IMG/VR virus record: IMGVR_UViG_3300006925_000070
Span: 1 to 31,724 of that record
Source of the DNA: a virus
Direction: 5' to 3' (one strand)
DNA: 31,724 nt
The translations under genes were made by a program, and so were the position numbers. Each line of letters begins with the position of its first letter. The first letter of the stretch is position 1. The notes beneath the pieces are model-generated. The model was given only the letters and a program-made list of their open reading frames with translations. It made no database searches and was not told where the DNA came from. This document shows positions 16,801-29,702 of the stretch, piece after piece.

Positions 16801-19711
16801 AGCTGCAAGAATACATGCTGGGGCGTCAGGCTCTAAATTTATAAAAGGATATGGAACAATAGCTAGAGTTGGAACAGAAAAAAGAAATGGTATACCTGTA
16901 AAGATTAAGGCGGTAGATGTAGCTAATAAAGCGCAGAAAGATTTGATGATAACAAATCAACCGCACTATGTTAAAATTGGAATACCAGGGAAAGGGATTG
17001 CAGTTTATAAGTATAAACCATTTAATGAGTCTAAAGTTAAAAGCGGAAAAGCAAGTAAACTTGATCAAGCAAAAAGAAATGGTTTATATGAATTAGTTGA
17101 TGTTGTAAAACCTGATCCTAAAAAAGGTAAACAAAAAAGAAGTGAAGGAACTAATCTTTTGAAGATGCAAAACATGGCAAAGAAAAAGCCAACAATAGCT
17201 AAATCTAAAAAGATGAAATTCTCACACAGTAGAAGTTCTGAGTTTACTGGATACAGCTCTGCTGATGCTGAAATGTTTAGCCTTGAAGAGTACCTTGAAG
17301 ATAAAGGACACAACGTCAGGAGCGTTATGAAAAACAAGGTCTTAAAAGAAGCAATGGAGTCGCTCTATAAAAACTATGTCGCAAATTTTAATTTAGCCCA
17401 GGAGTTTGACCGAACAATCATTCAAACTGGGAGAATTAAAAGACTCTCAGAAGAAAAACTATATGATTACGCATCGGTTATGCAAAAGCTTGATCCTAGC
17501 GCGTTATCTTCTGCTCACAAGGCTGTTGTATTAGAATTAGCTAAACGTGCATCAGAAGTTCAGAAAGCGTCTCGTAATGGTATAGACTGGACAGATAAGG
17601 GTGACATATCTTGGTTACATGCTTGGTTTGGATCTAATAACATTCCTGGACACAGACCAGAAATCCAAAACTTAATTCGTACTATGGAAAAAGAGTATGG
17701 AAAGTTTATGGAAGAAAATATTAAATTTCAAACTGAACTTGATAGACTCACAAAAAATCTTATTAGAAGCAAAATAGCAGAAGACGTAGGTCCTGCATCT
17801 AAAGTGGCTGAAGGTCTTAGATGGATTATGGGTTCTTATCCTAGCTGGACTGGGTACACTCAAAAAATGTATGAAAACATGTACGATAAGGTAGATGTTA
17901 AAATGAACGGAATAAAAACCCAAGAGTTAAAATTAAAAACAACAAAGGATTTTTTAGCTACAAAACCAACACAAGCTGAAGTAGAATTTTATACGTTCTT
18001 TAAAGAAACTACAAACAAGTATGGTAGAGTAACACAGCAAGCTCTTGGTGAAAGATATAAAGAGGGTTATATTCCTCATATTAAAATGGGGCTTTTTGGT
18101 TCTATAAAACAACGAGGCTTGTTTGGCCTTTATGACTATATGCTTCAAGGTACTGGAGACATTAATCATGTAAAAGTTAAAGGATATAACCCTATGACTG
18201 GTAAACAAGAGATTTTACCGTTTCACCAATGGAAGTTAGTATATTATTCCGCTAAAGGCACAAAAGGTGGATTTAAAAGTTTAGTAAATAAAAAGCAGTT
18301 TAAATCTGCTGCAAAATTAGATATAATTAGAAAGCGTGCAGAAAAGCTAGCAAAGCAAGGTAAGCATGACGATGGAACCAATATATCTATGACTGAGCAA
18401 GAAATACATGGTACTATGGGTACTAGTTTAATGTCTAGATTTACACAATCAAGAGGCGTTAGATCAGCTATGTTTGCTAGTGAAGATCTAGGAATGGCCC
18501 TTTCTCAATATGTTAATACTACATTATTTACATATGGTAATGAAAACTTTAGAGGTTTTAAATCTATGACACCATTGCTCGACGGTGTAATAGAATATAA
18601 TAAAACTAAAGGAAATAAAAATGCAGTTACATATTTAGAAAATGTTTGGAAAAAAGGTTTCTATACATTTAAAGATAGTCAGTTTGGTATGGGTAGATTG
18701 GGAGATAATGCACTACACCAATTAGTTAAATTAACTCGTATTAGATATTTATCTCTTGGATTTGGTGGAGGTTTTGGAAACTTAATGGTTGGTAAGTACA
18801 ATGAGTTTAGATCTAAAGGCGGCAAGAATTTCTTAAGAGGAGAGTCAAGATATTGGGGGCAACGCAAAAAGGCTTGGGCGTTAATTAAAAATCAATTAAA
18901 TCCTGAAAAATTTGCATACGATTTAATTCAAGGTAATGATTCTTCAGGACTTGATACAATACTTATGTCGCCATATATAGGGTCAGAACATTATATTCAA
19001 GGCTCTGGATTTGTTTCTCAATTTACAGAAGAAGAATGGGGCAGAATAAGTGAAGACGGAGAAATACCTGCAGATATGCAAGATAAAGTTGATTTATATA
19101 TTGACAACGTAACAAGACAACAGGGTTATGGTTATTCTAAAGTAGATCAAATTGGTATTGCTACATACTCTTGGGGTAAAGCAATAATGCAATTTAAAAA
19201 ATGGATGCCTACATCTATAGCTGAAAGATTCCAAAAAGAAACTATAGATAGGTTTGGAGAAATGAGATCTGGTAGTAATAGAGAGGCTTTTATTTTTGGT
19301 GCTAATTTTACTAGAAAATTAATAGCTGGAGAAGAGTCTATTAAAAACTTTAGAAAAAGATTTAACGAGCTACCTAAGTCAAAGCAAGAAGCTGTTAAAA
19401 CATTCTTTAGGGGTATGCAGGTTGTAAGTGCTTTAACTATACTTTCAATGTTATTTGGAGATTCAGATGACGAAGAGTTAAGGGGATTGGCAGACTTAGC
19501 ATCAGACACTAGAGATGACATAATGTTTATGACAGATCCTAGAAGATTAAAGTACATGGCAGAGCCTGCATCTTGGAGTCTTGTGGAGTCTGGAGCAACA
19601 ATGGCTGTAGGTATTGCTACCGCAGACGAAGCTAAATTTGTTGGTGGCCTTAGAGGTGTTAGTTGGACTGCGGCTCAAGTACTTAAAGAGTCAAAAAGTT
19701 TAGAAAATTAA
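7853..19711 (+). CDS. Giant virion polyprotein: ejection region, zinc metalloprotease, crAss-type RNA polymerase, C-terminal ejection region (3952 aa)
   Basis: Residues ~168-300 hold hydrophobic, Ala/Gly-rich segments; another (GVSFAAGFLMGG) is at ~422-437. Coiled coil runs to ~680 and a Lys/Glu-rich linker to ~960. A zincin follows, with HEYGH at 1044-1048 and a candidate third ligand in IIEEAF (1161-1166). The polymerase spans ~1255-3121: TDAGAF box (1946-1951), ESAAKK (2052-2057), metal-binding DHDGD (2413-2417) preceded by a PRVPAHGKQS stretch and VSPEI, GMIG (2504-2507), and ALDNTK (2565-2570). These match the order I know for the double-psi beta-barrel polymerase of crAss-like phages (phi14:2 gp66 type), which is packaged and transcribes early genes. 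The C-terminal ~820 residues resemble large phage ejection proteins (YSWGKAIMQFKKWMPT, then a hydrophobic helix near 3854-3870). There is no frameshift or internal stop. Polymerase identity is strong; the ejection roles are inferred. Confidence 0.88.
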   Translation: MQEDLLNYADPSLINQGTAPQPEQSELGANPMLSSDDSDYLAQQAAISGVEETINPLTSGLQKRDEQATNQGYVDPELMFEGNLEKGGKSLVAGVGIVVNDIGNMIDYAAMTMLPDEVRKSDTFMNLAERLPNFHEYGDALQKWGEVHQSPGLDEFTLDDMFKAEFWFTDVAKTLPYMAAMFVPGAQGAGIARGLAMAGAKSAAKRGLFGSAKRMLGVRAAQETAKAAAKGGAKAVAGAAATTGGSGVMGALATSTAAGEIGLTSLGSGLATWLGAGTASTTVIGAGLAGDVYNRALDMGMTEEEAGEAAHGTFIDNMAWIGLNGLSWGVQFGGVSGRAFRAFNKIKGGAQTANQLQKTFGQRLMQHARRGAASGTFEGTEEMFQETYETWIQEKNLAEAKGEEFISYTDFLTSDENRKTLGVSFAAGFLMGGKGGFMNSVAENGRRITNKRVSIDDDINMYENMNEAQRKVRTLEIIEAAVREDQLDGLNGTLDKLQKAGKISTEERVDLDNIIVEYAEIAATLPFKEKLTEVGQQTLFNLKVKQNQNNKAKTNLEALKDKSLQEANDNLTGKVLNDQIALIEAEHAVNMTNLENEMNENNDAVAKLLTSKKYSEKSKGVDKKRVSEINKFVETEEYNNMSDSAKQDILQERQNLQERIKEDSYVVNDALSMTESEFQQFTTEGAEQKAVADKEAAEAAGVKAEQTAEKGKEKAKSLFEKGKELFGKAYNATRDFAKKQALSFKESSAIKRVTKPITEDVQKLVDEGKSAEEISEFIKSKLTPEQIEKSGVTKERLNELIDEASAFYTGAKPESETAEAETEEELKTDPETVTVTDEEVFAEIRKRREEAAKEGKGSGTEGLTTQEEIDAVREELIKAKQDAESESVIPEGEEQISSEEAEKESQKSTEQAKEESKSTVDSILDFARNVAKKSKKLLSRQENKELDKAITNLGKTWSKFAPNVKSKKLKVEEETTKGVLSYYASINPGLHGAVMEAASKKFPDKQLLILRNVIDEHGSQVGGYAMGSAVLAKEGSDLGIRIMHEYGHVYYDMLKDNPSFMRGVNKIIGSDIYNDVKKQYAELVLYKTSDGNIISAGDLISQIENSRLVENKKYKETIEAFREAVKSGDGEAINSLANNLLNKLQEDGVAKVLPDEQQVDIIEEAFVTSLAPQLVTKLDLLFKKPAEAKEYKSFIRRTTERVAKMFTPSDSKKILSELDRGFENLTTDEMYTKIADDFAKGTQGGSLKFQNSRSKKLKLNRTFSASIAVAINKMNPNMYNTMSVQELSKTAIDFATQYSKSIGEDIKITKELREEVESRVLIRQESMKGFTLSPSGKTSGVSSIYKAAGMKQNIPSDLEQQQENFDEVESLLEESDIGADWYMSAEKAMDNSTSTFITALMKIANPDSRNITTGKPRYQKSKLEAGLLNMAHSNRDNVNDFTRAFMNSNEGHIKKAREIMQERLSEGEMYAAIRDIHNNYRNKFIESILNTTVTSDGSISESVAIHDSERRRVNAMKKAGNQIFFKNNTLLKSAVLERISAAQAKINKGQKLSQQEGLEIATAILRSVEGLNNYLDYDQLANIRLYRGNRLLNVQDYIADIISDKSLVDKKTGKTYLSQGKIPVMNMVPLFKSMVIASRGKNAIKSVSDVNGNMTLAFNYNNNLLNNSDVIINMAKTPEGRKKLAKKYLKKRKGKLVGNPFVEMVIGLGVNGMADQAYQIGFDGGVISYRDGDGKGVKFEQQTKDDIVQFDMEKFASNWDSRKPGKSRSFYTQPIAIFANSKRRYSIASPMATTEAQKQKVISGLIAKKDHKVKYKDGQLALGFEIKANGKYDISQEVSKMKQWFYDNPNLIKSNKVLFSFAKVTGNRVAITPQGEQMIEDYVFNYMVNSYYAQQLFVGKHGQAKSQADYIKRATGAIARHDGSMRGVAIEPMIYKDVDENGVNATDAGAFILPEDVPMIQDRVSNNVGRGFKFVYYGSDMRVDDENTNMVGDESIADQDYYFKTYVHVLDSEFIADSPELQKIERELRARKKFNNDQQNMFGETLNIAMYESAAKKAPSIHGTSASAESFEEGSNAWNQLNDAYMSGNKVVGIDGSNMGIQLPMDKYREEVVEPTQMSAADLNELTPEQLEDMEEILKLRQEALDLALEESAGDILSEGIDATPEARAKSKEAVVSKISKSSVAATFNGIARYQAITNPRVSQNLPSLSKFYGNSIRSSVKKSSKVMTAGTIAIQGVAVGKGLKGYFDENGKEYIGMRYEVQADGTTIKKPAILPAEAIVPAGLKGKYFSRVNEEFNNETEAKRYADGLIVDTAASTDLDKAGVRIKGLNRKFPSKRAAKEFLYNKIAVQPDGKFIILGDEFFGPRVPAHGKQSKPIMEIKGFQKEVLDKNGKHLNNHIQVSPEINRILGSDHDGDSLFINLPYENPKTKRQEKVNELLSKQFKFYRNVAMFDLLTASMEYESGVEARIKAIQKKNPNKVKRSSQTSPIGASEFFEENVQGSGMIGTIAALNNGMSYAARYGVEIGVKGGITIDGKTIDKFQDDTSLKGKESLSFKNAVLLNIALDNTKNQHATALGMNPSTISAVAFMTRLGFDSSSLDSVFTSKAAELYAKFKGKKALKDQTFINTNETSAAVLAYMNMLGGTAEQARKALDNSIAFGVNIDTSKITSKPIDQMTAIEKQQMISVLAMFEIAEGVTKDIYAINNMLGQHKNVSYNEHEANKQLEDYNNIIGGKSSLKGNGLTEMNNNPVIKSYKDRLAKTSAIYQSNNITGTVHASSTMELIENLTGNENIARRDGDEQSKIVRDVFTNTLQNTVPMFKKTLKHLGNFEGDRPEPRVNKVVRNLQEKIEDKGLQDNLFIQSTQFSFYEGYGNNMNKYTLKPNVDFINEYTTDGEILTIRKAFSELPLDVQEDIFIVDSIVNELGYRNTSVQPLFDMKTLEKLSEEIDTVHQEVIDDLSDIISPELMAESIILDNPEIIPTAARIHAGASGSKFIKGYGTIARVGTEKRNGIPVKIKAVDVANKAQKDLMITNQPHYVKIGIPGKGIAVYKYKPFNESKVKSGKASKLDQAKRNGLYELVDVVKPDPKKGKQKRSEGTNLLKMQNMAKKKPTIAKSKKMKFSHSRSSEFTGYSSADAEMFSLEEYLEDKGHNVRSVMKNKVLKEAMESLYKNYVANFNLAQEFDRTIIQTGRIKRLSEEKLYDYASVMQKLDPSALSSAHKAVVLELAKRASEVQKASRNGIDWTDKGDISWLHAWFGSNNIPGHRPEIQNLIRTMEKEYGKFMEENIKFQTELDRLTKNLIRSKIAEDVGPASKVAEGLRWIMGSYPSWTGYTQKMYENMYDKVDVKMNGIKTQELKLKTTKDFLATKPTQAEVEFYTFFKETTNKYGRVTQQALGERYKEGYIPHIKMGLFGSIKQRGLFGLYDYMLQGTGDINHVKVKGYNPMTGKQEILPFHQWKLVYYSAKGTKGGFKSLVNKKQFKSAAKLDIIRKRAEKLAKQGKHDDGTNISMTEQEIHGTMGTSLMSRFTQSRGVRSAMFASEDLGMALSQYVNTTLFTYGNENFRGFKSMTPLLDGVIEYNKTKGNKNAVTYLENVWKKGFYTFKDSQFGMGRLGDNALHQLVKLTRIRYLSLGFGGGFGNLMVGKYNEFRSKGGKNFLRGESRYWGQRKKAWALIKNQLNPEKFAYDLIQGNDSSGLDTILMSPYIGSEHYIQGSGFVSQFTEEEWGRISEDGEIPADMQDKVDLYIDNVTRQQGYGYSKVDQIGIATYSWGKAIMQFKKWMPTSIAERFQKETIDRFGEMRSGSNREAFIFGANFTRKLIAGEESIKNFRKRFNELPKSKQEAVKTFFRGMQVVSALTILSMLFGDSDDEELRGLADLASDTRDDIMFMTDPRRLKYMAEPASWSLVESGATMAVGIATADEAKFVGGLRGVSWTAAQVLKESKSLEN
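10790..11452 (+). other. Zinc metalloprotease (zincin) domain inside the giant protein
   Basis: Approximate domain, residues ~980-1200. RIMHEYGHVYYDML contains the HExxH zinc-binding helix at residues 1044-1048: His1044 and His1048 as ligands and Glu1045 as the catalytic base. About 115 residues later, VDIIEEAFVTSLAP (1159-1172) offers a Glu in a helix, the usual position of a third ligand in gluzincin-type enzymes. Zincin domains are known in giant virion proteins of crAss-like phages. The substrate is unknown; self-processing or a host target are both possible. Confidence 0.72.
11594..11614 (+). other. KFxxSRS motif, copy 1 (between protease and polymerase)
   Basis: Residues 1248-1254 read KFQNSRS. 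The motif lies between the end of the zincin domain and the start of the polymerase region. With copy 2 at 17216-17236 it brackets the polymerase. Its function is unknown; a linker or processing site is inferred. Confidence 0.45.
11615..17215 (+). other. crAss-type double-psi beta-barrel RNA polymerase module inside the giant protein
   Basis: Residues 1255-3121, about 1870 residues, bounded by the two KFxxSRS motifs. Conserved blocks run in family order: TDAGAF (1946), ESAAKK (2052), PRVPAHGKQS with VSPEI, DHDGD (2413-2417), GMIGTIAALNN (2505-2515), ALDNTK (2565) with a following TISAV...RLGF segment, and a C-terminal HYVKIGIPGKGIAVYKY strand region. The three Asp of DHDGD are expected to hold the catalytic magnesium. 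The second DHDGD residue is His, where related enzymes usually have Phe. Confidence 0.85.
17216..17236 (+). other. KFxxSRS motif, copy 2 (between polymerase and C-terminal region)
   Basis: Residues 3122-3128 read KFSHSRS, with the same K-F-x-x-S-R-S spacing as copy 1. It follows a strongly basic stretch (AKKKPTIAKSKKM) that ends the polymerase region and precedes the helical C-terminal module. Confidence 0.45.
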
Positions 19712-19735: not shown

Positions 19736-20287
19736 ATGGCGAATACTTTAAACACAGACGTTGCTAAAGAGCTTAATATTACAGCTCGTAGAAATGATAC
19801 TTTTAAAATGCTTTTAGAGGTTAGAAACTCTAGTAATGTATTAGAAAATTTTACAGGAAATAATAGTAATGCTACTGGTCACATATGGCAGGCTAAAATG
19901 AGTATATTAACTACTAGTGGTGATGCTGTTTTAAATATATATAGTGAGCAATGGAGAAATGCATCTGAAGGAGCGACGGCCTCAGACCCTGATGGTGACG
20001 GGGTTAATTACCAGCATCCTTCTGACGCGTTACCCGAAGCGACAACAGTAGGTCATTACACTGGAGGAACAGGCGCAAGTTCAGCTATACATTTAGCAGC
20101 TCAAGATGGTACAGCAGGAACTAAAGTTGCAATACATGTACCATATACTCATATGGATTTTCAGTCAGGAACATACAAGTATGATTTGCAAATAAGAAAG
20201 CAGACAGGTAACGCGCCAGCCACATTAGAATATATAACCTGGCTGTATGGAACATTTACTTTAAAATCTGATATTACGCAGATATAA
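19736..20287 (+). CDS. Cassette 1 adaptor-like protein (183 aa), paralogue of the 26686 and 29139 genes
   Basis: This is one of three related proteins here. Shared features are the start MA...TDVA..LNI..RRNDTF, a Ser/Asn-rich variable middle, and the ending SGTYKYDLQI...WLYGTFTL. The pattern of short beta strands, with a polar 'R-D-T' turn followed by a ligand-free Ig-like sheet, resembles N-terminal domains of baseplate upper/fibre adaptor proteins (BppU_N-like). This copy carries a ~50-residue insertion (NIYSEQWRNASEG...DGDGVNYQHPSD). The gene follows a 24-nt gap and its stop overlaps the next ATG (TAATG at 20285-20289), so the two are probably translationally coupled. The role as the tail attachment point for the following proteins is inferred. 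Confidence 0.62.
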   Translation: MANTLNTDVAKELNITARRNDTFKMLLEVRNSSNVLENFTGNNSNATGHIWQAKMSILTTSGDAVLNIYSEQWRNASEGATASDPDGDGVNYQHPSDALPEATTVGHYTGGTGASSAIHLAAQDGTAGTKVAIHVPYTHMDFQSGTYKYDLQIRKQTGNAPATLEYITWLYGTFTLKSDITQI

Positions 20288-21021
20288 TGGCGCATGAAGT
20301 TAACATAAAAACATCTATTGCAACAGAAACCCTAAAGATAAATTATTATCCAGAGGGTTTTGCTGTTATACCTGACAGCGCTTCACATCAATATATAAAC
20401 ACAACTCCTAACGCTCAAAGCGTAGAAATACAAGACGTAACGTCTTATAGCATAACTAATGTAGACAACAGTGGCAACCTTGTTTTTGATGCGTCTAACG
20501 CTTTAGGAATAACTTTAGGTACTGCACCTTCATCACAATTATTAGAAGGCTTAGATGCTTATAAATATAGTTTTCCTGATTTCAATAATTATGGGGTTGT
20601 AGATGGGGTTGTTTCTGTATTTAGTGAAGATTTAACTACCTTAACAGCTGGAGATATAATATATTTTAAACCTCACGCAACAGGAACTGTTAATATATAT
20701 AACTCTACAATTAAAAAAGCTAATGTATCTAATTTAAATAATGGAGCTTATAATACTTTAATGATATTTTTAAGTTATTCTAATGGAACCTTAAAAGTTT
20801 TACATAAAGGATTTTTTGACTATGAAACAGATAGTGTAAATGTTAGCAACTGGGAAGCAGGAAGAACAATATACTTAGATGAAAATAATAAAATAGATAT
20901 AGTACCAACAACGCAGGCAGAAAACTGGGTTAAGTCTTTAGGGTTTTGCGTTCCAAATAAAGAAAATAAATACAGAGTTTGGTTTGAGCCTGACAGCACA
21001 TACATTAAGTTAACAACATAA
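20287..21021 (+). CDS. Putative tail fibre/attachment protein with EVNI N-terminus (244 aa)
   Basis: The start MAHEVNIKTSIATETLKI resembles the start of the 635-aa fibre (EVNISLKSK...), which also follows an adaptor paralogue by the same TAATG overlap; a common docking peptide is inferred. The body is beta-rich. The C-terminal ~60 residues (AGRTIYLDENNKIDIVPTTQAENWVKSLGF...KYRVWFEPD) have the 'Gr-iYl-dnnkI...vkslGf' pattern common in phage fibre and decoration beta-domains. No enzymatic motif is seen. It is followed 3 nt later by the 1132-aa gene in an ATTATG context. It is likely a structural part of the host-recognition apparatus; the exact role is unknown. Confidence 0.55.
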   Translation: MAHEVNIKTSIATETLKINYYPEGFAVIPDSASHQYINTTPNAQSVEIQDVTSYSITNVDNSGNLVFDASNALGITLGTAPSSQLLEGLDAYKYSFPDFNNYGVVDGVVSVFSEDLTTLTAGDIIYFKPHATGTVNIYNSTIKKANVSNLNNGAYNTLMIFLSYSNGTLKVLHKGFFDYETDSVNVSNWEAGRTIYLDENNKIDIVPTTQAENWVKSLGFCVPNKENKYRVWFEPDSTYIKLTT

Positions 21022-21024
21022 ATT

Positions 21025-24000
21025 ATGGGATATTATCCAAAAATAAGTGGAAACACAGATAGCAGATTAGATAAAAAAACTGGGGTAATGGATGCTTCAT
21101 TTGACGTCTATGTATATCAAAATAGTGGCGCAAATGATAATGCTGAAAGAGCAAACATGATTGTATGTATAGTAAATAATGCTATTGAAGGATCTGGCCC
21201 AGATGCCGATTTAGGAATTGATGAGATTCAAATATATAACCCATCATTTTATGGCGGTATTGTACAAAACGTGTTAGAAGGTACAATTAATACAAACGCT
21301 GATAGCGGATGGATATTAGATCCAGTAGTTTCTGGTATTACCTACATTGGCGCTCCTGAAGGTCAAAATAATATAGCTCAATCTTCAAGTGGCGAAACGT
21401 GGAAGACTGCTGGTGAAGCAAGCCTATGTAATGCTTTTGTAACACATCCAGGTGATAGTTTTGTAGATACAAGCGCAAATAATTTAGGGACCACACCTGC
21501 AAATTACAATATAGTACCTCTTTATTTAGCCCACAATCTCGTTCAAAAAGATGTTAATGGCGATTATGAAGCACCAATACCAGCTAACTCATGGGCTTCT
21601 TTTGTGGTGGCTTATCAGCCCTCTCAAATAGAAACGCTCAGTGGTTATAAATTAAAAATATTTACAAACGCTGGTAATTTTCAATTAGACTTACACGGTA
21701 GTTCTTTTAATGAAGTAATAATGGGTGCAAATGTTGGTTCTATTAGCGGATCTACATTTACACCCACTGGTGTGACTATAAATGATGGTGGAGCATGGAA
21801 AATTGGTAACAACTCAAATGGTTGTTATCCAAGAGCAAAAACACCCGCACTATTAAGGTCTTTGATAGGAGATGATGTTTGCTTAAAGTTAACTGACGTA
21901 AGCTCTAATTTAGGACAGGTTGGATGGAAATGGAAACTATCAAGTAGTGGCTCTAGTCTTACATCAATTGCAAGCAGCTACCCACAAGAAGGGAATATGG
22001 CTTCTGCAGTGGCAGACTCTGGTAATAGTTCTGGTTACGAATGGATTGAAGGTGGTGTTTCTGAATGGGTTGCACCTGAAAACATGGAAGATATGTCTGA
22101 TAACAACTATAGGATAAATGGTAATACTGTTATAGGAATGTCAACGTATAGTCAATATCCTTTAGGTAAAAATTTTAGACTAGAAGATGAAGATGTAGTT
22201 TGGCATAACGGGTCATATTATAGCGCTAGTGGAACTGTAAACTATTCAAAAAGTGACTTTTTTAGAGCCAGAATGTTTTGGTTAAAGTACGAAACAAATC
22301 CTACTAATTACGATAACTCAGCTATTTATAACGAGTTGTTTACTATGTCCGTATCGTGGGGTGTTTACACAAAAATTACTACACCAACTAGTAGGACGCA
22401 GGGAGATACCGAATTAAACGTAACGACTGCGCAGTCATTTGCATCACATGTTCATGGTGCTGGTTACGGACACAAATCTTATAGGCTACTAGATTGGTTA
22501 AGTAACGGAAGTGAGTTTGACCTTACACAACAAGTTACATATAATAACTGGGGTAATGATGCAGCATATGCATTAGAAAGTTATGATTTTGCAGCTGAAG
22601 TAGGAGCAAATACCTCTGGTACTCCTGGTGGTAGATTTGCAATATACTCACCTGCTGGTCATTTAGGAAAAAATCCTTATCAATGGAGTTCTAGTGATTC
22701 AGCTGGAAGTTATAGTAATACAACTTTTACTGCTTTTTCTACAAATGCTGATACCGCACATGCATGGTTAAAATACAATTTGATTATTCGAAAAAGAGCA
22801 GATCTTTTATATGAAAATACTACATGGCCTTGTAAGTTTGATAGAATAACTACTGAGTATCTTTGGGATTTTGATAAAATCTCATACTACTCAAAAGATA
22901 TAGATCGTTGTTGGGATTTAGAAGGTGACTACCCTGGTCTTAAATCAAAGTTATATTGGAACTATGTTGTTGCTCCATCAATATCAAGAATATCTTTAAT
23001 TCCAAAAAATACAGCTACTATAGATAAAGATCAAGGATCTTATATTGCCGATGGTTCACAGCCAGATCTTTTCGATAAAGATTTTTCTGCGCAAATAATT
23101 CCTGAGCCTGTAAGTCAATGGTATCAAAGTCCTAATGAAGGTTATCACGCTATAGATAATGATTCTTCAAATTGGGAAAACAATCAATTTAGCGGTACAA
23201 ACGGAAAAGCTCATTATGATGATAGTTCTAGAAATGCAGTAGTTACTGTTGATAGGGTTGCAGCGTGGCAAGATGTAAACAGTAAAGTTAATACAAGTGC
23301 TGGTACACATAATCCTGTGTATAGAGGCTATGTAGATTCTAACAACAATAGAATACATGAGTTTACTCCTGTTAATACTATTTACAAAATAGAGACTCCT
23401 GCTTTAAGTCCTAATGATAATAATTATTACTCTTTTGGTTCTTTTAGATTTTTTAATCACGGCGATGATGTTGTATATATTCACAGCATGAAAATTGTTA
23501 AAGCAGATAATGACGATGATATTTTTGAAGAGGATTTATTTCAAAACCCCACAGGAGATCCTACGAATCCAGAAGAATTAAATGTAGGGTACAAGCCAAA
23601 TGATTTATCAGCTGATGACGAAAAGATTCACTGGCATATAAGTGAGTGGGGACCCCATGCTGAAAATGAAAATGCGGATCCATGGAGAACTGTAGGGGCT
23701 ACAGCTGCAGGAAATTCAGGTTTGTATACAGAAAAGAAATTTTACACTCCTCACACTTCCTCAACTCAAAATACACCAATAGGAAATTATAGACAAGATA
23801 CTGGTAGTGATGCAAGGTACTGTAGTCCAGTAAGAAAGTGGTTTGATATTAACGCAAACGATAGTAGTCCAAACAGCTCAAATCAGACCAGCTCTGAAGG
23901 CTTTGATAACCTACTTTTTAATGATGATGATACACAAGATAATTATGGTATTGTTGCCCCTACGTTTGAGCAGTTAGGGTGTCCTTCTAATACAGATAAT

Positions 24001-24423
24001 TTTTATAACGGAACAAGGTTTTTTGAAACCTGGAATAACGAACCAACTACAGGAACTGGATCCCAAACTCAATATAATGCTCCTGTTGGTGACAGCTTGT
24101 TTTTAATTAGGTTTAAATTAGAGCCAAAAGGAACTGTTCATGATATAGGAGATTACAGAGCAAAACTTGTAGTTTTTACTTACACACATGAGTATGCAAA
24201 TAGAAAAAAAGTTGCAGCCAATGGCACGCCTACTAATAGCACGCATAATTTTGATAACTGGGAGGGTAGTTCCCCAGAGATAAACTTAAAGCTAGAAGAA
24301 CATCATTTTTATTTTAAAGCATCAGTTGTTCCTGCACCTATTTTACAAGTAATGGATGCGGATGATACTATAGCATTTCCAGATAGTACTGATGTTGATT
24401 TTGGATCAATAAATGTTGGATAA
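21025..24423 (+). CDS. Large multi-Ig-domain putative receptor-binding protein (1132 aa)
   Basis: The protein is Ser/Asn/Thr/Tyr-rich, beta-rich, and has no signal peptide or membrane helix. Several segments look like Hydin/ASPM-type Ig domains: ANSWASFVVAYQPSQ...LKIFTNAGNFQLDLHG near residues 190-230, YYSFGSFRFFNHGDDVVYIHSMKIV near 810, and LFLIRFKLEPKG...GDYRAKLVVF near 1040. The last residues, PILQVMDADDTIAFP...DFGSINVG, look like the opening strand of one more such domain, but the protein stops there. The next ORF, overlapping by one base (TAATG), seems to supply the continuing strands. The size, composition and position after an adaptor gene suggest a surface adhesin; the ligand is unknown. 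Confidence 0.55.
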   Translation: MGYYPKISGNTDSRLDKKTGVMDASFDVYVYQNSGANDNAERANMIVCIVNNAIEGSGPDADLGIDEIQIYNPSFYGGIVQNVLEGTINTNADSGWILDPVVSGITYIGAPEGQNNIAQSSSGETWKTAGEASLCNAFVTHPGDSFVDTSANNLGTTPANYNIVPLYLAHNLVQKDVNGDYEAPIPANSWASFVVAYQPSQIETLSGYKLKIFTNAGNFQLDLHGSSFNEVIMGANVGSISGSTFTPTGVTINDGGAWKIGNNSNGCYPRAKTPALLRSLIGDDVCLKLTDVSSNLGQVGWKWKLSSSGSSLTSIASSYPQEGNMASAVADSGNSSGYEWIEGGVSEWVAPENMEDMSDNNYRINGNTVIGMSTYSQYPLGKNFRLEDEDVVWHNGSYYSASGTVNYSKSDFFRARMFWLKYETNPTNYDNSAIYNELFTMSVSWGVYTKITTPTSRTQGDTELNVTTAQSFASHVHGAGYGHKSYRLLDWLSNGSEFDLTQQVTYNNWGNDAAYALESYDFAAEVGANTSGTPGGRFAIYSPAGHLGKNPYQWSSSDSAGSYSNTTFTAFSTNADTAHAWLKYNLIIRKRADLLYENTTWPCKFDRITTEYLWDFDKISYYSKDIDRCWDLEGDYPGLKSKLYWNYVVAPSISRISLIPKNTATIDKDQGSYIADGSQPDLFDKDFSAQIIPEPVSQWYQSPNEGYHAIDNDSSNWENNQFSGTNGKAHYDDSSRNAVVTVDRVAAWQDVNSKVNTSAGTHNPVYRGYVDSNNNRIHEFTPVNTIYKIETPALSPNDNNYYSFGSFRFFNHGDDVVYIHSMKIVKADNDDDIFEEDLFQNPTGDPTNPEELNVGYKPNDLSADDEKIHWHISEWGPHAENENADPWRTVGATAAGNSGLYTEKKFYTPHTSSTQNTPIGNYRQDTGSDARYCSPVRKWFDINANDSSPNSSNQTSSEGFDNLLFNDDDTQDNYGIVAPTFEQLGCPSNTDNFYNGTRFFETWNNEPTTGTGSQTQYNAPVGDSLFLIRFKLEPKGTVHDIGDYRAKLVVFTYTHEYANRKKVAANGTPTNSTHNFDNWEGSSPEINLKLEEHHFYFKASVVPAPILQVMDADDTIAFPDSTDVDFGSINVG

Positions 24424-25040
24424 TGCCTTTTCCAGTACAAAATGTAAATGGGGAAGATTTAGGGTTTATTCCTGTTCAGGGTAAATTAATTATAGTTAAG
24501 ATAAGAAATGTACACCCTTTAATGGTTCCAGTAATTTCAAATGGATATGTATTAAATGATTTTCCTTATTCAGAAATAGCAGATTTAGGTTCATATGGTG
24601 GTTTAGAATTAGGTTTTACATGTTTACCTGATTCACAAGACTACAGCAACACAGTTAATGTAACAACAAATATAAGTCAAATACCATATCCTGAAGGACC
24701 TTTGTTAAATTTAATGGGCTCTCAAACAACTTCATGGCCTTATAATTGGTCTATGACAAATCATAGGTTTGTAAATAGTTTTAGTTTAAGGAATTATAGT
24801 AACACTGGTGATGAATTTATTTTTGCTGTAACATTTTTTCCAATTAGAAGTAGAACATATAACGCGACATTAGTAATAGAACACCTTCTTCCTGGATCTA
24901 CTTTTGTGCATAAATTTATATTAAATCTTACAGGAATAAGATATGGAAATATAAACGAAATAGATCATACAGAATACCCACAAATGGTTTTTGAAATAAA
25001 CCACGTAGGGTCTAACAACATATTAAAAATAGAAACATAA
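24423..25040 (+). CDS. Ig-like domain protein continuing the upstream adhesin chain (205 aa)
   Basis: The N-terminal QGKLIIVKIRNVHPLMVPVI fits the second and third strands of a Hydin/ASPM Ig domain, whose first strand (DFGSINVG) closes the preceding gene. A second such domain is suggested by FVNSFSLRNYSNTGDEFIFAVTFFP, ending in TFVHKFILNLTGI, the usual 'fvvtF-P...l-G' pattern. It overlaps its neighbours by one base on both sides (TAATG at 24421-24425 and 25038-25042), so it is probably made by termination-reinitiation. No other function is visible. It could be a separate subunit that completes the neighbour's domain, or the product of an ancestral split. Confidence 0.5.
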   Translation: MPFPVQNVNGEDLGFIPVQGKLIIVKIRNVHPLMVPVISNGYVLNDFPYSEIADLGSYGGLELGFTCLPDSQDYSNTVNVTTNISQIPYPEGPLLNLMGSQTTSWPYNWSMTNHRFVNSFSLRNYSNTGDEFIFAVTFFPIRSRTYNATLVIEHLLPGSTFVHKFILNLTGIRYGNINEIDHTEYPQMVFEINHVGSNNILKIET

Positions 25041-25843
25041 TGCCAGATCCAATATTAGAAATATATGACCTTGATAATAGGCGGCTTCAAAATAACACTG
25101 GTGCTATTATTGCAGACAGCATACACATGCCAGAAGAGGTTGATGTAGAAATTGTAACTCATACTTTAAACCTGTATGCAGGATGGAACTTGATTTCAAC
25201 TTATGTAAACGTTGACTCTTTAAGTAATAAATCTCTTAGTAATATATTATACCCATTAGTTAGTAATGGAAACTTAATTATCGCTAAAGACTATCTTGGT
25301 AGTGCCTACCTTCCTGAATGGAATTTTAATGGAATTGGTGACTGGAAAAACGGTCAAGCTTATCAAATTAAATTAAATAATTCACAGACACTTGAAATAA
25401 CAGGAGAAAGAATGGTACACACAACTCCGCAAGGATCTTATTACGGAATGGAGATTGAAATACAAGGAGGTTGGAATTTTATTGGAATACCAACTATCGG
25501 TGTTTATAATCTTGTTGAGGTATTTGATATGATGAGAGTTACCCAAGACACTAACACCAACAACGGCTCTTCATGTAGTCAAGGAGATACGATGTCTATT
25601 GGGCCTGCGAATTTAACTAATTGCGGAAGCGGAGCTATTATTATTATTAAAAATTATTTAGGATCAGCTTATCTTCCTGAATGGAATTTTAATGGGATAG
25701 GTAGTTTGTTGCCTGGACAAGGGTATCAAATAAAAATGTTTGGTCCATCAAGTAACAAGTATAAACTTTTATTTACAGAATCATCAATAAGCAATGAATG
25801 GGTCTTATGGGATGGACAATTTACTGATGAGAATCCGCAATAA
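25040..25843 (+). CDS. Putative adhesin with two GWN/YQIK repeats (267 aa)
   Basis: The N-terminal PDPILEIYDLDN repeats the PILQVMDAD segment that ends the 1132-aa protein. Two tandem domains follow at residues ~46-123 and ~142-245. Each begins AGWNLIS or GGWNFIG, continues with IAKDYLGSAYLPEWNFNGIG or IIKNYLGSAYLPEWNFNGIG, and ends QAYQIK or QGYQIK. I know this pattern from C-terminal regions of secreted proteins of marine Bacteroidetes. The copies share a 23-nt identical run (25310-25332 and 25673-25695). The second copy has an insertion with two Cys (SSCSQGD, LTNCGSG). It is coupled to the previous gene by TAATG. Surface binding is inferred. Confidence 0.55.
   Translation: MPDPILEIYDLDNRRLQNNTGAIIADSIHMPEEVDVEIVTHTLNLYAGWNLISTYVNVDSLSNKSLSNILYPLVSNGNLIIAKDYLGSAYLPEWNFNGIGDWKNGQAYQIKLNNSQTLEITGERMVHTTPQGSYYGMEIEIQGGWNFIGIPTIGVYNLVEVFDMMRVTQDTNTNNGSSCSQGDTMSIGPANLTNCGSGAIIIIKNYLGSAYLPEWNFNGIGSLLPGQGYQIKMFGPSSNKYKLLFTESSISNEWVLWDGQFTDENPQ
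25175..25774 (+). repeat. Tandem GWN/YQIK domain repeat
   Basis: Two protein-level repeats lie at 25175-25408 and ~25463-25774. The core 'YLGSAYLPEWNFNGIG' is identical at the protein level, while flanking codons differ. This implies an old duplication with protein-level constraint, or a core recently homogenised by recombination. Confidence 0.8.
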
Positions 25844-25849
25844 ATCGTT

Positions 25850-26575
25850 ATGACAAAAATAAAATTATTACAAGGAATACTGCCAGGAAATTCTACACCA
25901 CAAGAGTTTGTTGAAAAATTGTATATTAAAAAAAATATAATAGTCCCTGAAAAAGATGAAATAATAATAACGCATACAGACAACAGTTTTAATTTAACTA
26001 TACCTTATAATCAAACAGAATCTATTATAAATAAAATAGATTATCCTAAAAGCTTTATAGATAAAATTCAACCTTTACGTCTTGTCGCCATCTCAGGGGG
26101 TTATGGAGAAGAGGTTTCTTTGCTTGTTAAGCAAATGAACTTAATTAAATTTATTAATTTTTTAGAAGAATATAAGTTAGATATAGAAAGCGACACCCAA
26201 ATAACGCAAAAAAATATAATACAACAAAATGAGGTAGTACAAAAAACAAATAAAAGTATTAATACTTTAATATTAGATTATAGATTTATAAAAAATCAAT
26301 TTTTAAACACTCAAAAATACTATTATAAAACAAAAGATTCTTTAGGTAATACTTGGGGTTCAAGTGAGTCGTTTTATAGAAACCAAATAAAAACAATAAA
26401 TTTTAAAAATGTTATTGATGATACAACGTCAACAAACAAAGATGGTTTTACATTAAATGAAACTTATTATTTATTTTTATCTAATGAAAATAAAGACGTT
26501 AAATTATCATACACAGCGACAAGTAGTTTAGCTTTGAATAAAGGTGTAATAACAATTAATACTTTAAGTTTATAA
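25850..26575 (+). CDS. Unrecognised protein (241 aa), A-rich gene in the first cassette
   Basis: I do not recognise this protein. The N-terminal half is Ile/Lys-rich (NIIVPEKDEIIITHTDNSFNLTIP). The middle (~105-155) is a Gln/Asn/Lys-rich helix (TQKNIIQQNEVVQKTNKSINTL) and the C-terminal ~90 residues are beta-like (YYLFLSNENKDVKLSYTATSS). No Cys cluster, catalytic motif or membrane segment is seen. Codon use is visibly more A-rich than in its neighbours, which may mark later acquisition. It follows the GWN protein by 6 nt (start GTTATG) and precedes a 34-codon ORF. It is probably a structural or accessory part of the host-recognition region; this is inferred only from position. Confidence 0.5.
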   Translation: MTKIKLLQGILPGNSTPQEFVEKLYIKKNIIVPEKDEIIITHTDNSFNLTIPYNQTESIINKIDYPKSFIDKIQPLRLVAISGGYGEEVSLLVKQMNLIKFINFLEEYKLDIESDTQITQKNIIQQNEVVQKTNKSINTLILDYRFIKNQFLNTQKYYYKTKDSLGNTWGSSESFYRNQIKTINFKNVIDDTTSTNKDGFTLNETYYLFLSNENKDVKLSYTATSSLALNKGVITINTLSL

Positions 26576-26576
26576 C

Positions 26577-26681
26577 ATGAAAATAACAACAAAAAATATT
26601 AATGTATCTTTGTATGGTAAAGTTGTTAACAAAAATATAACTACTAAAAAGTCTATAAAAATAAAAACAAGTAAAACATAA
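26577..26681 (+). CDS. Possible 34-aa micro-protein with fibre-N-terminus-like sequence
   Basis: ATG at 26577, TAA at 26679-26681, filling the space between the 241-aa gene (ends 26575) and the second adaptor gene (starts 26686). Its sequence starts MKITTKNINVSLYGKVVNKN and goes on with ITTKKS, a highly basic stretch. It resembles the first ~22 residues of the 635-aa fibre (EVNISLKSKSNPVINITT): an N-[IV]-SL core and a shared NITT. Tight packing supports coding. It could be a free docking peptide or the remnant of a lost fibre gene. Confidence 0.4.
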   Translation: MKITTKNINVSLYGKVVNKNITTKKSIKIKTSKT

Positions 26682-26685
26682 GATT

Positions 26686-27072
26686 ATGGCAAAAGTATCT
26701 GCAGATATAGCTGAAACAGTAGACATTACCCTGAGAAGAGGTGACTCTTTTTATTTAAAAATAGAATTAACTAACGAAGACGGGACTAATTATAATCTTT
26801 ATGATAGTAACGGGGTTTCCGCTATGGATTGTAACTTTGAGGTATACAACAATGATAGGTTAATTTTGGGTTATGCAGCGAAAGAAGCATTGTCACCTAT
26901 GGTTTCTCAAACAATAGCTGTTGATCCTGCCGAATCTACTATAACTATTGATAGTGCTGCGACAAACCAATCATTATATAGTGGAGCGTATAAATATAAA
27001 TTGTATGTAACTGATAATGGTAGTGTTTTTAATACAGTAATGATTGGTAAGTTTAAAGTTATTGACCTGTAA
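26686..27072 (+). CDS. Cassette 2 adaptor-like protein (128 aa)
   Basis: Second member of the three-gene paralogue set: MAKVSADIAETVDITLRRGDSF at the start and SGAYKYKLYVTDNGSVFNTVMIGKFKVIDL at the end. Between them are alternating strands (NLYDSNGVSAMDCNFEVYNND). The length is normal for a single BppU_N-like beta-sandwich. The start is in an ATTATG context (26683-26688). The stop codon overlaps the ATG of the 635-aa fibre gene (TAATG at 27070-27074), the same arrangement as cassette 1. This suggests that adaptor and fibre are made together and assemble as a pair. The adaptor function is inferred from similarity and position. Confidence 0.62.
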   Translation: MAKVSADIAETVDITLRRGDSFYLKIELTNEDGTNYNLYDSNGVSAMDCNFEVYNNDRLILGYAAKEALSPMVSQTIAVDPAESTITIDSAATNQSLYSGAYKYKLYVTDNGSVFNTVMIGKFKVIDL

Positions 27073-28979
27073 TGCCAAACACAGAAGTAAACATATCGTT
27101 AAAAAGTAAAAGTAATCCTGTAATAAACATTACAACAGTTGATAGTGGTACTGTTACAGGATCTGCAATAATAGCTCCTACAGTATCTTTTATATCCACA
27201 GGGCCTAGAGGCGCTGTAGGCGCTAAAGGCGATAACGGAAATGATGGAACTGCAGTTGTCGCACCAAATAGTATTACAGCTACAGAAATAGCGCCAGGAG
27301 TTATAACAGCTACAGAGATAGCTAGCAATAGTATAACCGCAGGAAATCTTGCTGTTGGAGCCGTGACCAATCATTCAATTGCAGATGGAGCAATAGCTGC
27401 GTCAAAAATAGCAGACGGAACAATTACGTCTGGGAAACTAGCATCAGGTACTATAAGTAGTGCTGTTATAGATATTATAGACAACAACGCTATTGATAAA
27501 AGTAAAATTGCAGAGCAAACATTGGATGCTAGTACGCTTGCAACAGATTCTATTTTAACATCTAAAGTAAAAGATAGAAACATCACTGGTGCTAAGATAG
27601 AATCTAATGCAGATTTAGATGGTGAAGTAAAAGTTCACAATTTAAAATTAAAAGGTTCTTCACCAGCCACGCTTACAGGACCCGACAATTACGCTTTACA
27701 AATAAAATCTAACACTACTATAGATTTTCAAAATACATCAAATACAACTATAGCATCTTTAGATCAAAATGGAAATTTAACTTTATCTGGTACTGTAGAC
27801 GGAATAAATATAGCTACAGATGTTGCTGCTAATTCTAATAAAACAGGAATTACTACAGCACAAGCAAATGCTATCATAGCCAACACGGCTAAAACTGTTA
27901 TTACTACTAGTCAAGCTAACGCAATTACTGCGAACACAGCTAAGGTTGACCTTACTGTTGAAAATGCTGGAACAGTACACGCTAGTAACTATACAGACAC
28001 AAATACCACATACGATGTAATGGGTAGCGGTAATAGTTACGCTGCTGGTTTAATTCCTGCTGGGTCTGCCGCGCACTCTAATAATTTTTTAAGAAAAGAC
28101 GGCACATTTGCAATACCATATATATACTTAGGTATGGATGGTATAGCTTTAAGTTTTAATCAAATTTCTGTAGACCTTAAAGCAAATGGTGGCCTTGTTA
28201 TAGAAAATGGTAAAATAGCCTTAGACTTAGGGGCGTCTTCTATTACAAATAATCTTACCATACCTGCAGCTTACACAGACGCAGAAGCAGTTAGTGCAGT
28301 AGCAGCGGCAGATAATTACATTAAAAATGATGCTAATGAAGTGTTAGCTGGTAGTCTTGAAATCAGTGAGCAATTATTTGTTGTTAAATCTACTGGTGGA
28401 AGTAAATCTAGATTTAGAAATTCTTCTACTACAACTAACAGAACTTTAGAGGTTCCAGACGCTAGTGGTACTTTAGCCCTTACATCAGACATACCTAGCT
28501 TTACTCCTAATCCTACCGTCATAGGACAATTTTCTACTAGAGTTTCTTCATATTGGTCTGGAAGATATTATTATGGTCACGCAAGTTATGGTTGGAATTA
28601 CTTTGCTTGGAATTATGCTACTACATCGAAAACAACGTTAGACGATAGGTATATTCATGTAGGTATGGTTTCTCCTATAACGACAAATAATGTAAAAGTA
28701 AGAGCAACCGTAAGAAACGATAGTAATACTGAAAATGTAGAGCTTTGTTTATTAAAAGGTTTAAGGCCAAATGGTAGCTCATCAAATGTTTCTTTAACAG
28801 AATTAGGTAGTGTTACGGTTACAATTTCTACTGTTGATTTACATTACAATGGAGATATTGATGTTACTAACGCTAATTTAGCGGCTGGTGATTTAGTTTT
28901 TTTAGCTGTAAAAAGAGTATCAAGTGCTGCAGATGCAACAAAATATATACAAGTAAGCGCAACAATATATGGCGAATAA
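27072..28979 (+). CDS. Tail fibre with collagen-like and beta-repeat shaft (635 aa)
   Basis: Residues 1-20 carry the EVNI docking-like start. Residues 44-60 are collagen-like Gly-X-Y triplets (GPRGAVGAKGDNGNDG). Residues ~67-130 are 10-residue repeats (SITATEIAPG, VITATEIASN, SITAGNLAVG, AIAASKIADG and others), a trimeric beta shaft pattern of phage fibres. Residues 257-290 are two 17-residue repeats (KTGITTAQANAIIANTA type). NNFLRKDGTFAIPY (~337-350) and a Tyr/Trp-rich C-terminal domain (~490-635, SYWSGRYYYGHASYGWNYF) follow; the latter is the probable receptor-binding tip. The gene is coupled to the adaptor by TAATG. A homotrimeric, host-binding fibre is very likely; the receptor is unknown. 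Confidence 0.82.
   Translation: MPNTEVNISLKSKSNPVINITTVDSGTVTGSAIIAPTVSFISTGPRGAVGAKGDNGNDGTAVVAPNSITATEIAPGVITATEIASNSITAGNLAVGAVTNHSIADGAIAASKIADGTITSGKLASGTISSAVIDIIDNNAIDKSKIAEQTLDASTLATDSILTSKVKDRNITGAKIESNADLDGEVKVHNLKLKGSSPATLTGPDNYALQIKSNTTIDFQNTSNTTIASLDQNGNLTLSGTVDGINIATDVAANSNKTGITTAQANAIIANTAKTVITTSQANAITANTAKVDLTVENAGTVHASNYTDTNTTYDVMGSGNSYAAGLIPAGSAAHSNNFLRKDGTFAIPYIYLGMDGIALSFNQISVDLKANGGLVIENGKIALDLGASSITNNLTIPAAYTDAEAVSAVAAADNYIKNDANEVLAGSLEISEQLFVVKSTGGSKSRFRNSSTTTNRTLEVPDASGTLALTSDIPSFTPNPTVIGQFSTRVSSYWSGRYYYGHASYGWNYFAWNYATTSKTTLDDRYIHVGMVSPITTNNVKVRATVRNDSNTENVELCLLKGLRPNGSSSNVSLTELGSVTVTISTVDLHYNGDIDVTNANLAAGDLVFLAVKRVSSAADATKYIQVSATIYGE
27264..27461 (+). repeat. Decapeptide (30-nt) fibre-shaft repeats
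   Basis: About six 10-residue units encode residues 65-130 of the fibre. Units 1 and 2 are nearly identical in DNA (27273-27293 and 27303-27323, 30 nt apart). Later units diverge but keep the x-I-T...I-A-x-G pattern, so unit number could change by slippage or recombination. Confidence 0.75.
27840..27941 (+). repeat. Two 17-residue (51-nt) fibre repeats
   Basis: Residues 257-273 and 274-290 read KTGITTAQANAIIANTA and KTVITTSQANAITANTA. They are a direct tandem repeat with a TxxQAxAIxANTA helical pattern, probably a trimeric coiled-coil segment. Confidence 0.75.
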
Positions 28980-29139
28980 ATACATACCTAAAGATGTTAA
29001 AAATCTTTTTATACCTGGTATAAATGAAGATATAAAAAAAGCTGCTGAAGATTGTACTACAGCAGAATTAACTGTTTTAGTTAATAGTTTAGTGGATGTG
29101 CTAAATGAAATTTTAAAAGAACAGAAAGGAGAACAGTAA
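28969..29139 (+). CDS. Small helical protein (56 aa) between fibre and third adaptor
   Basis: ATG at 28969 lies 11 nt inside the end of the fibre gene in another frame; TAA at 29137-29139 overlaps the next ATG. The protein begins MANKYIPKDVKNLFIPGIN, then a Leu/Val-rich helix (TAELTVLVNSLVDVLNEILK) with a charged tail (EQKGEQ). Overlaps at both ends with ordinary junction geometry support a real gene. The last codons carry the Shine-Dalgarno AGGAG for the following adaptor. The function is unknown. A small assembly chaperone for the fibre or a virion linker is possible; there is no membrane segment for a holin. Confidence 0.6.
   Translation: MANKYIPKDVKNLFIPGINEDIKKAAEDCTTAELTVLVNSLVDVLNEILKEQKGEQ
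29127..29131 (+). promoter_or_regulatory. Shine-Dalgarno AGGAG for the third adaptor gene
   Basis: AGGAG lies 7 nt before the ATG at 29139, inside the last codons of the 56-aa gene. It stands out because the other starts in the window lack a visible Shine-Dalgarno. Confidence 0.5.
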
Positions 29140-29513
29140 TGGCAACAATAAATACAGACATAGCTCAAAAGATAGATATTATAGTTAGAGAAGATAACAC
29201 TGCTACTATAAGTTTAAACATTACTGATTCGTCAGGATCTGCTTTTGACCTCACTGGTTATAGTGTTAAATTCGTAGTTGAAAACAATAGCGGAGAAGTT
29301 TTATTTAATCTTAGTAATGAAAGCTCTGATGGTATAACTAATCCTGCAGACGGAACAGGAACTTTAGATTCAACAGGAAAATGTATTATTAAGATAGAAG
29401 CTTCAGAAACAAGCCTTATTCCAGGGACTTATAAACATAAACTTGTACTTATAAATTCTGGCGTTTCTACGCAAACATGGATGTATGGAAAATTTAAAGT
29501 TAATAAAGATTAA
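29139..29513 (+). CDS. Cassette 3 adaptor-like protein (124 aa)
   Basis: Third paralogue: MATINTDIAQKIDIIVREDNT at the start (with TDIA, DI and R-x-D/N-T conserved), FDLTGYSVKFVVENNSGEVLFNLS in the middle and PGTYKHKLVLINSGV...WMYGKFKVNKD at the end. The DLTG-y-v-F-v pattern is the clearest BppU_N-like feature among the three copies. Its N-terminus is closest to the 183-aa copy (NTD[IV]A). It overlaps the 56-aa gene by one base and has a good Shine-Dalgarno. It is not directly followed by a fibre: a 58-codon and an 88-codon gene come before the adhesin. The adaptor role is inferred. Confidence 0.65.
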   Translation: MATINTDIAQKIDIIVREDNTATISLNITDSSGSAFDLTGYSVKFVVENNSGEVLFNLSNESSDGITNPADGTGTLDSTGKCIIKIEASETSLIPGTYKHKLVLINSGVSTQTWMYGKFKVNKD

Positions 29514-29525
29514 ATAAGTATATTT

Positions 29526-29702
29526 GTGAAAGATTTGATTGAGCAATTAAAAAAATTAAACCACGCATGGTATTGTTCTAAAACAAAATGTACATGTTCT
29601 ACTATCAAACTTGAAGACGAGGTGGATCTTGGTGATAGAATAATACAGGAAATGTGGGATAAAGAAAAACGATTTATAAATTCTAAAAATAAAATAAAAT
29701 GA
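29526..29702 (+). CDS. Small Cys-rich protein (58 aa), GTG start
   Basis: The frame opens after the in-frame TAA at 29511-29513. The first plausible start is GTG at 29526, since no early ATG exists. It ends with TGA at 29700-29702, overlapping the next ATG in an ATGA junction. The start of the protein is VKDLIEQLKKLNHAWYC, then SKTKCTC and an acidic helical C-terminus (LEDEVDLGDRIIQEMW). His13, Cys17, Cys22 and Cys24 could bind a metal. No family is recognised. It is the only gene here with a GTG start and a TGA stop. The ATGA overlap and full use of the gap support coding, but the start remains uncertain. Confidence 0.5.
   Translation: MKDLIEQLKKLNHAWYCSKTKCTCSTIKLEDEVDLGDRIIQEMWDKEKRFINSKNKIK

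Follow-up and report, generated by a model that had tools for sequence, protein, structure and literature searches.

What three diverged copies of a small adaptor-like gene do in the tail of a crAss-like phage, and whether each of them heads a receptor-binding cassette of its own, as the original prediction supposed, is the question raised by the locus described here. Fibre mounting has been resolved for crAss001, in which the rings R1 and R2 carry the THA/THB hubs that the fibres dock to (PMC10172136), and is hardly known for other crAss-like phages.

Adaptor paralogues of an aquatic crAss-like phage

All positions below refer to the window, that is the whole stretch of DNA analysed, a 31.7-kb virus record. 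The only crAss hallmark inside it is the product of the first gene (1-2817), which matches the stabilization/muzzle protein of gut crassviruses. The genes lying further upstream (portal, major capsid protein, rings R2 and R1) were taken from two contigs, L002 and L003, which are identical with the window by 99.9% across its first 4.4 kb and by 95% across 1.1 kb, respectively. Profile comparison with L002 and relatives related R2 to crAss001 gp40 (E 1e-8) and R1 to gp43 (E 1e-16), and one relative, G008, matched Crass_capsid above the cut-off (E 1e-27). Since the muzzle gene lies in the window, the ring and capsid genes in overlapping contigs and Crass_capsid in G008, the set characteristic of Crassvirales (major capsid protein, muzzle and ring proteins) is present, partly by way of L002 and the relatives, and judged by these genes the phage is an aquatic crAss-like one, distant from named phages. 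DNA search revealed no close relatives among the latter, nor did the RNAP-like protein (7853-19711, 3952 aa) find a match there. This protein carries a HEYGH stretch and a DHDGD motif, which presumably resembles that of crAss-type RNA polymerases.

All three adaptor genes are on the plus strand and were found at the predicted places and lengths. A1 (19736..20287, 183 aa) opens a block of genes directly after the RNAP-like gene, A2 (26686..27072, 128 aa) precedes the fibre gene F, and A3 (29139..29513, 124 aa) is the last member of the block. The proposed kinship of the three was confirmed: phmmer run among all open reading frames of 25 sources connected A2 with A3 at E 1.7e-10, A1 with A3 at E 8e-5 and A1 with A2 at E 1.3e-4, and A2 and A3 share 29% identity in a full-length alignment. 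All of them match phrog_1084 (A2 at E 8e-8, A3 at 4e-10 and A1, in its C-terminal part only, at 3e-4), a family without assigned function that also matches 27 of the 31 adaptor homologues. Invariant in these 31 are M1, D, R, Y, T and G. The motifs quoted in the original prediction are present, except for the spacing at the start, which is R-x-x-[DN]-[TS] (RRNDT, RRGDS and REDNT) instead of R-x-[DN]-[TS]. In the phylogenetic tree A1, A2 and A3 form three clades with support of 99/100, 98/85 and 92/74, and each clade appears as a single group in 100% (A1), 100% (A2) and 92% (A3) of bootstrap trees. As the tree resolves three supported orthologous clades, the copies must be old, and their sequences identify them as real, anciently diverged paralogues making up three orthologous groups.

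Named families were approached from below their thresholds. The match of BppU_N (PF10651) to A3 (E 4.8e-4) scored 20.3 bits, under the gathering cut-off of 23.1, which leaves A3 outside this family; among the 31 homologues BppU_N matches five (best E 4.7e-6), and LtfC, as a sub-threshold Pfam match, two. A2 had no match among named phages, A3 and the family consensus gave weak ones to minor tail proteins of Microbacterium phages, and the adaptor profile found chance-level matches only among PDB sequences.

Predicted fold and coupling to the next gene

AlphaFold models of A1 (mean pLDDT 77, the insertion being poorly predicted) and A3 (mean pLDDT 89) have main strands that correspond along the alignment. 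With both models VIA-align ranked the same structures first, namely Douge BppU, T5 p132 and DT57C LtfC (Z 9.8, 9.4 and 9.4 for A1; 11.4, 10.9 and 10.8 for A3). The best phage Ig matches, with Z from 9.8 to 9.4 for A1 and from 11.4 to 9.9 for A3, stand above the first non-phage Ig folds (6.6 and 7.9, respectively), and the next-ranked structures in both cases are phage neck and baseplate proteins, including those of TP901-1 (BppU) and 80alpha. The original prediction had placed the three copies on one attachment-type fold and proposed structure prediction as a check. The models of A1 and A3 do not differ in fold and have the same best matches, both falling into the BppU-N/LtfC group, an Ig-like beta-sandwich ranked above other Ig folds, and A2 would be placed in it by sequence. 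Thus an LtfC/BppU-type fold of the adaptors is strongly supported by modelling.

Ig folds are common and sharing one does not alone demonstrate a function. The nearest structures are fibre anchors of other phages. T5 p132 forms a dodecameric collar of Ig fold that carries the lateral fibres, and was linked by the authors of its structure to the N-domain of BppU (PMC10038345). In DT57C, whose LtfC is the counterpart of T5 p132, the fibre chains of LtfA donate short strands from their N-termini to the ring of LtfC (PMC10713586). By this analogy the adaptor role originally proposed gains support, and A1, A2 and A3 may be Ig-fold collar proteins anchoring fibres to the tail. The list of fold matches of both models also contains the neck proteins of Sf14, P74-26 and Bas63, and the N-terminus of A3 matches PHROGs of neck passage structure and minor head proteins, which would suit a location at the neck or head (as whisker, collar or stopper-like proteins), away from the site of fibre docking. 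However, the best structural matches anchor fibres at a baseplate or collar, and the adaptor genes are interleaved with the fibre gene, adjoin it and covary with it; a neck or head location appears to us quite improbable. Still less can be expected from the assumption that the adaptors serve as Ig decorations binding glycans, or as chaperones of fibre assembly, rather than as permanent anchors. Ig folds are indeed frequent as phage decorations and the ring domain of Douge BppU additionally bound host glycans (PMC13033339), but the adaptors are stand-alone single domains overlapping the fibre gene and closest to ring-forming anchors, so we regard this assumption as very unlikely.

Further indications in favour of anchoring by A1 and A2 come from the way in which adaptors are coupled to their neighbours. 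In a set of 69 pairs, which includes related sequences and many phage contigs with one adaptor, the last base of the adaptor stop codon is also the first of the following gene (an overlap of one base) in 55 cases, and in 13 the start lies three bases further upstream (an overlap of four bases). In the window B1 (20287..21021, plus strand, 244 aa) starts inside the stop codon of A1, and F (27072..28979, plus strand, 635 aa) inside that of A2. B1, a candidate client of A1, has the strand-like N-terminus MAHEVNIKTSIATETLKINYY. F, a candidate client of A2, also begins with a strand-like segment, followed by collagen-like Gly-X-Y; it matches tail fibre PHROGs, and its profile found one chain in the PDB, orf16 of 9eg4 (E 3e-5 over 61 residues). 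Both pairs, A1-B1 and A2-F, thereby display the LtfC-type arrangement of a stand-alone adaptor beside a client with a strand-forming N-terminus, and A3 has no overlapping client of this kind. With near-copies removed (20 versus 249 sequences), N-termini of the next proteins are enriched in alternating hydrophobics (2.85 versus 1.58, p 4.5e-5), while the control segment (residues 41-65 of the same proteins) shows no enrichment (p 0.16). The best non-B1 matches of the B1 N-terminal profile are the N-termini of F, which scores higher than other genes with p 7e-8 when related sequences are kept in; direct alignment of the two N-termini is suggestive only. The client N-termini have, therefore, the pattern expected of strand donation, which does not in itself prove a contact, and one can assume that B1 (for A1) and F (for A2) would donate short N-terminal beta-strands to the adaptor sheet, as LtfA does to LtfC.

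Many other phage contigs (L076-L125) carry a single adaptor overlapping a downstream gene that encodes up to ~830 aa. Since most of those tested have no Crass_capsid match, the adaptor-client pair extends beyond the crAss-like lineage and, because it recurs in so many single-adaptor contigs, could mark fibre genes that no profile recognises.

Gene order and exchange of the host-recognition block

Behind B1, which has syntenic homologues in all relatives, four further genes follow on the plus strand. B2 (21025..24423, 1132 aa) diverges fast and, judging from its position, is probably a fibre or appendage protein of the virion; no database family matched it, and search of the PDB with the profiles of B1 and B2 found nothing. 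Next come B3 (24423..25040, 205 aa), B4 (25040..25843, 267 aa), with two repeats of the GWN[LF]I type, and B5 (25850..26575, 241 aa). The segment present in two copies in B4 contains GWN[LF]I and SAYLPEWNFNGIG, and the size of this family varies in relatives from 239 to 1802 aa. Between B5 and A2 there is a 34-codon frame (26577-26681), possibly a remnant of the gene for ~300-325 aa that several relatives have there, and between F and A3 a 56-aa frame (28969..29139, plus strand) overlaps both.

In 11 records compared gene by gene the order is conserved: RNAP-like gene, A1, B1-B5, (extra gene), A2, F, (small gene), A3, variable small genes, lysis. Search of whole records with the adaptor profile registered exactly three adaptors in 13 records of the lineage, that is in the window and in G003, G004, G005, G008, G010, G011, G012, G014, G015, G016, G020 and G028, and every close relative spanning the region has three. 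The genes following the adaptors had been described as unrelated. This is correct for the products behind A1 and A2, as B1 and F have no full-length similarity, but they are not unrelated imports, since across relatives the genes downstream of A1 and A2 belong to the same syntenic families. A3, in turn, closes the block instead of heading a cassette: in relatives it stands just after the fibre cassette and before the variable small genes, to which lysis genes succeed. In the window it is followed by a small frame, an 88-aa frame and a LamG-domain protein that begins ~450 bases past A3 and has no counterpart among the relatives compared. This concanavalin-like lectin (29969-31723, E 1e-17), truncated by the end of the window at a length of at least 585 aa, is perhaps a recently gained carbohydrate-binding protein. 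The small frame (29514-29700) has no ATG start and resembles the 55-aa genes found after A3 in G003 and G004 (HAWYCSKTKCTC versus HEWCCSKNKC).

Two relatives are rearranged. In G036 no adaptor stands directly in front of F, the block ends with two tandem adaptors, and their total is still three. The tandem copies are L149 and L150, the second being a protein of 306 aa that starts like an adaptor and continues into a longer C-terminal part. The block of G038, a distant relative with the strongest Crass_capsid match (E 2.8e-86), contains A1, B1, three further genes, F and A3, thus two adaptors with none immediately in front of F, and is situated between the capsid genes and R2, not after the RNAP-like gene. 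Based on these arrangements the block behaves as a unit, in which an adaptor is not needed before each client.

Traces of exchange are seen at its borders. The RNAP-like genes of the window and L008 are 89-96% identical in DNA right to their end; past this point identity is 57-59% halfway through A1, 75% where the 3' end of that gene is conserved, and 51-55% in early B1; comparison with L005 gave the same profile. Identity collapses within A1 and within or around A3. G005 and G012 are 98.6% identical across 5.8 kb starting just before the end of A3, whereas their A1 proteins agree in 51% of residues and their B2 and B3 proteins in 23-27%. In G010 and G011 A2 together with the N-terminus of F forms an island of high identity amid divergent stretches. 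Pairwise identities compared in 10-12 genomes gave Spearman coefficients of 0.68 for A1-B1, 0.67 for A1-A2, 0.64 for A2 and the N-terminus of F, 0.67 for A2-A3 and 0.47 for A1-A3 (p from 0.001 to 0.02 within the block). The flanks are uncorrelated with A1, the coefficient being 0.05 for the C-terminus of the RNAP-like protein (measured over 89 residues, aligned poorly in some pairs) and -0.07 for the lysis gene; noise alone does not explain this on the right side, where a coefficient of 0.76 (8 genomes) was obtained between two genes of the flank. Thus A1, B1, B2, A2, the N-terminus of F and A3 covary with each other and not with the flanks, which means that variation affects the block mainly as a whole. 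For the complete F protein the correlation with adaptors is weak (0.13-0.27), as would be expected if fibre tips were exchanged while the N-terminus stayed fixed; this is apparently the only finer swap, and on the same comparisons the units of A1, A2 and A3 are not swapped independently.

Three independent and interchangeable host-recognition cassettes with one adaptor heading each, as the original prediction had it, are consistent with the overlap of A1 and A2 with mutually unrelated genes, with the LamG-domain protein, peculiar to the window, behind A3 and with the island in G010 and G011. Opposed to them are the variable small and lysis genes following A3 in relatives, the fixed orthology of the copies with the same families behind A1 and A2, the covariation of all three adaptors, and G036, which retained three adaptors in a broken order. 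Such cassettes are, in our opinion, unlikely. Swapping of specificities behind adaptors survives in part, as exchange does occur beside them; the comparison of close relatives, suggested as a check, gave a constant number of three, with variation of one block and not of separate units.

We consider it fairly probable that the adaptors are collars of the LtfC/BppU-N type, which anchor fibres by strand donation from their clients and stand at the start, in the middle and at the end of one exchangeable host-recognition block. The three copies would then be specialised paralogues, probably occupying separate collar positions or rings, and the block may be exchanged between related phages largely whole, breaking at the adaptor genes or inside them; in addition, fibre tips would be swapped behind the conserved N-terminus of F. 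Against the collars count the absence of a coupled client for A3 and the position of F in G036 and G038.

Relation to known docking and collar systems

The adaptors were absent from 16 crassvirus, crAss-like and pachyvirus records searched (positive controls were included in a second search), and the literature searched contained no paper linking crAss-like phages with BppU-type anchors. The fold class is already known; its use by crAss-like phages in such a number and arrangement was not found described there, in line with the initial impression of an unfamiliar organisation. In aquatic crAss-like phages the adaptors delimit a host-recognition block that is exchangeable, and they connect this block to the collar principle known from T5 and from siphophages of Gram-positive hosts. 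It is conceivable, though for the present doubtful, that three LtfC/BppU-type collars replace the docking hub of gut crassviruses, that the end adaptors serve as recombination junctions, and that the whole apparatus moves with its mounts between phages and genome positions.

With THA/THB of crAss001 (gp38/gp39) the adaptors share the supposed task of docking fibres on the barrel of a crAss-like tail, and in G038 their block occupies the place where crAss001 has THA/THB. They differ in having no sequence relation to these proteins, as hhalign of the adaptor profile against gp38 and gp39 gave no similarity. Profiles of THA/THB found nothing in adaptor-bearing records. The same holds for phi14:2 and cr118_1, two crassviruses devoid of adaptors, and the negative result therefore does not bear on a possible replacement of the hub.

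With LtfC (p132) and LtfA/pb1 of T5 and DT57C the similarity lies in the fold predicted for A1 and A3 (Z 9.4 to 10.9), in the small stand-alone Ig adaptor and in the short, strand-forming N-terminus of the client fibre (PMC10713586). Unlike the single LtfC there are three paralogues, the phage is crAss-like and not T5-like, and the LtfC Pfam match remains sub-threshold; the dodecameric ring is known in T5, while the adaptors are known from genes and predicted models. In TP901-1 (BppU-N), 80alpha (FibU/FibL) and Douge (BppU) the domain is fused to the appendage, whereas in the present phage adaptor and client are encoded apart, by two genes that overlap. The fold is nevertheless alike, with weak BppU_N similarity in sequence, and these domains anchor appendages round the tail tip, which is the role proposed for the adaptors.
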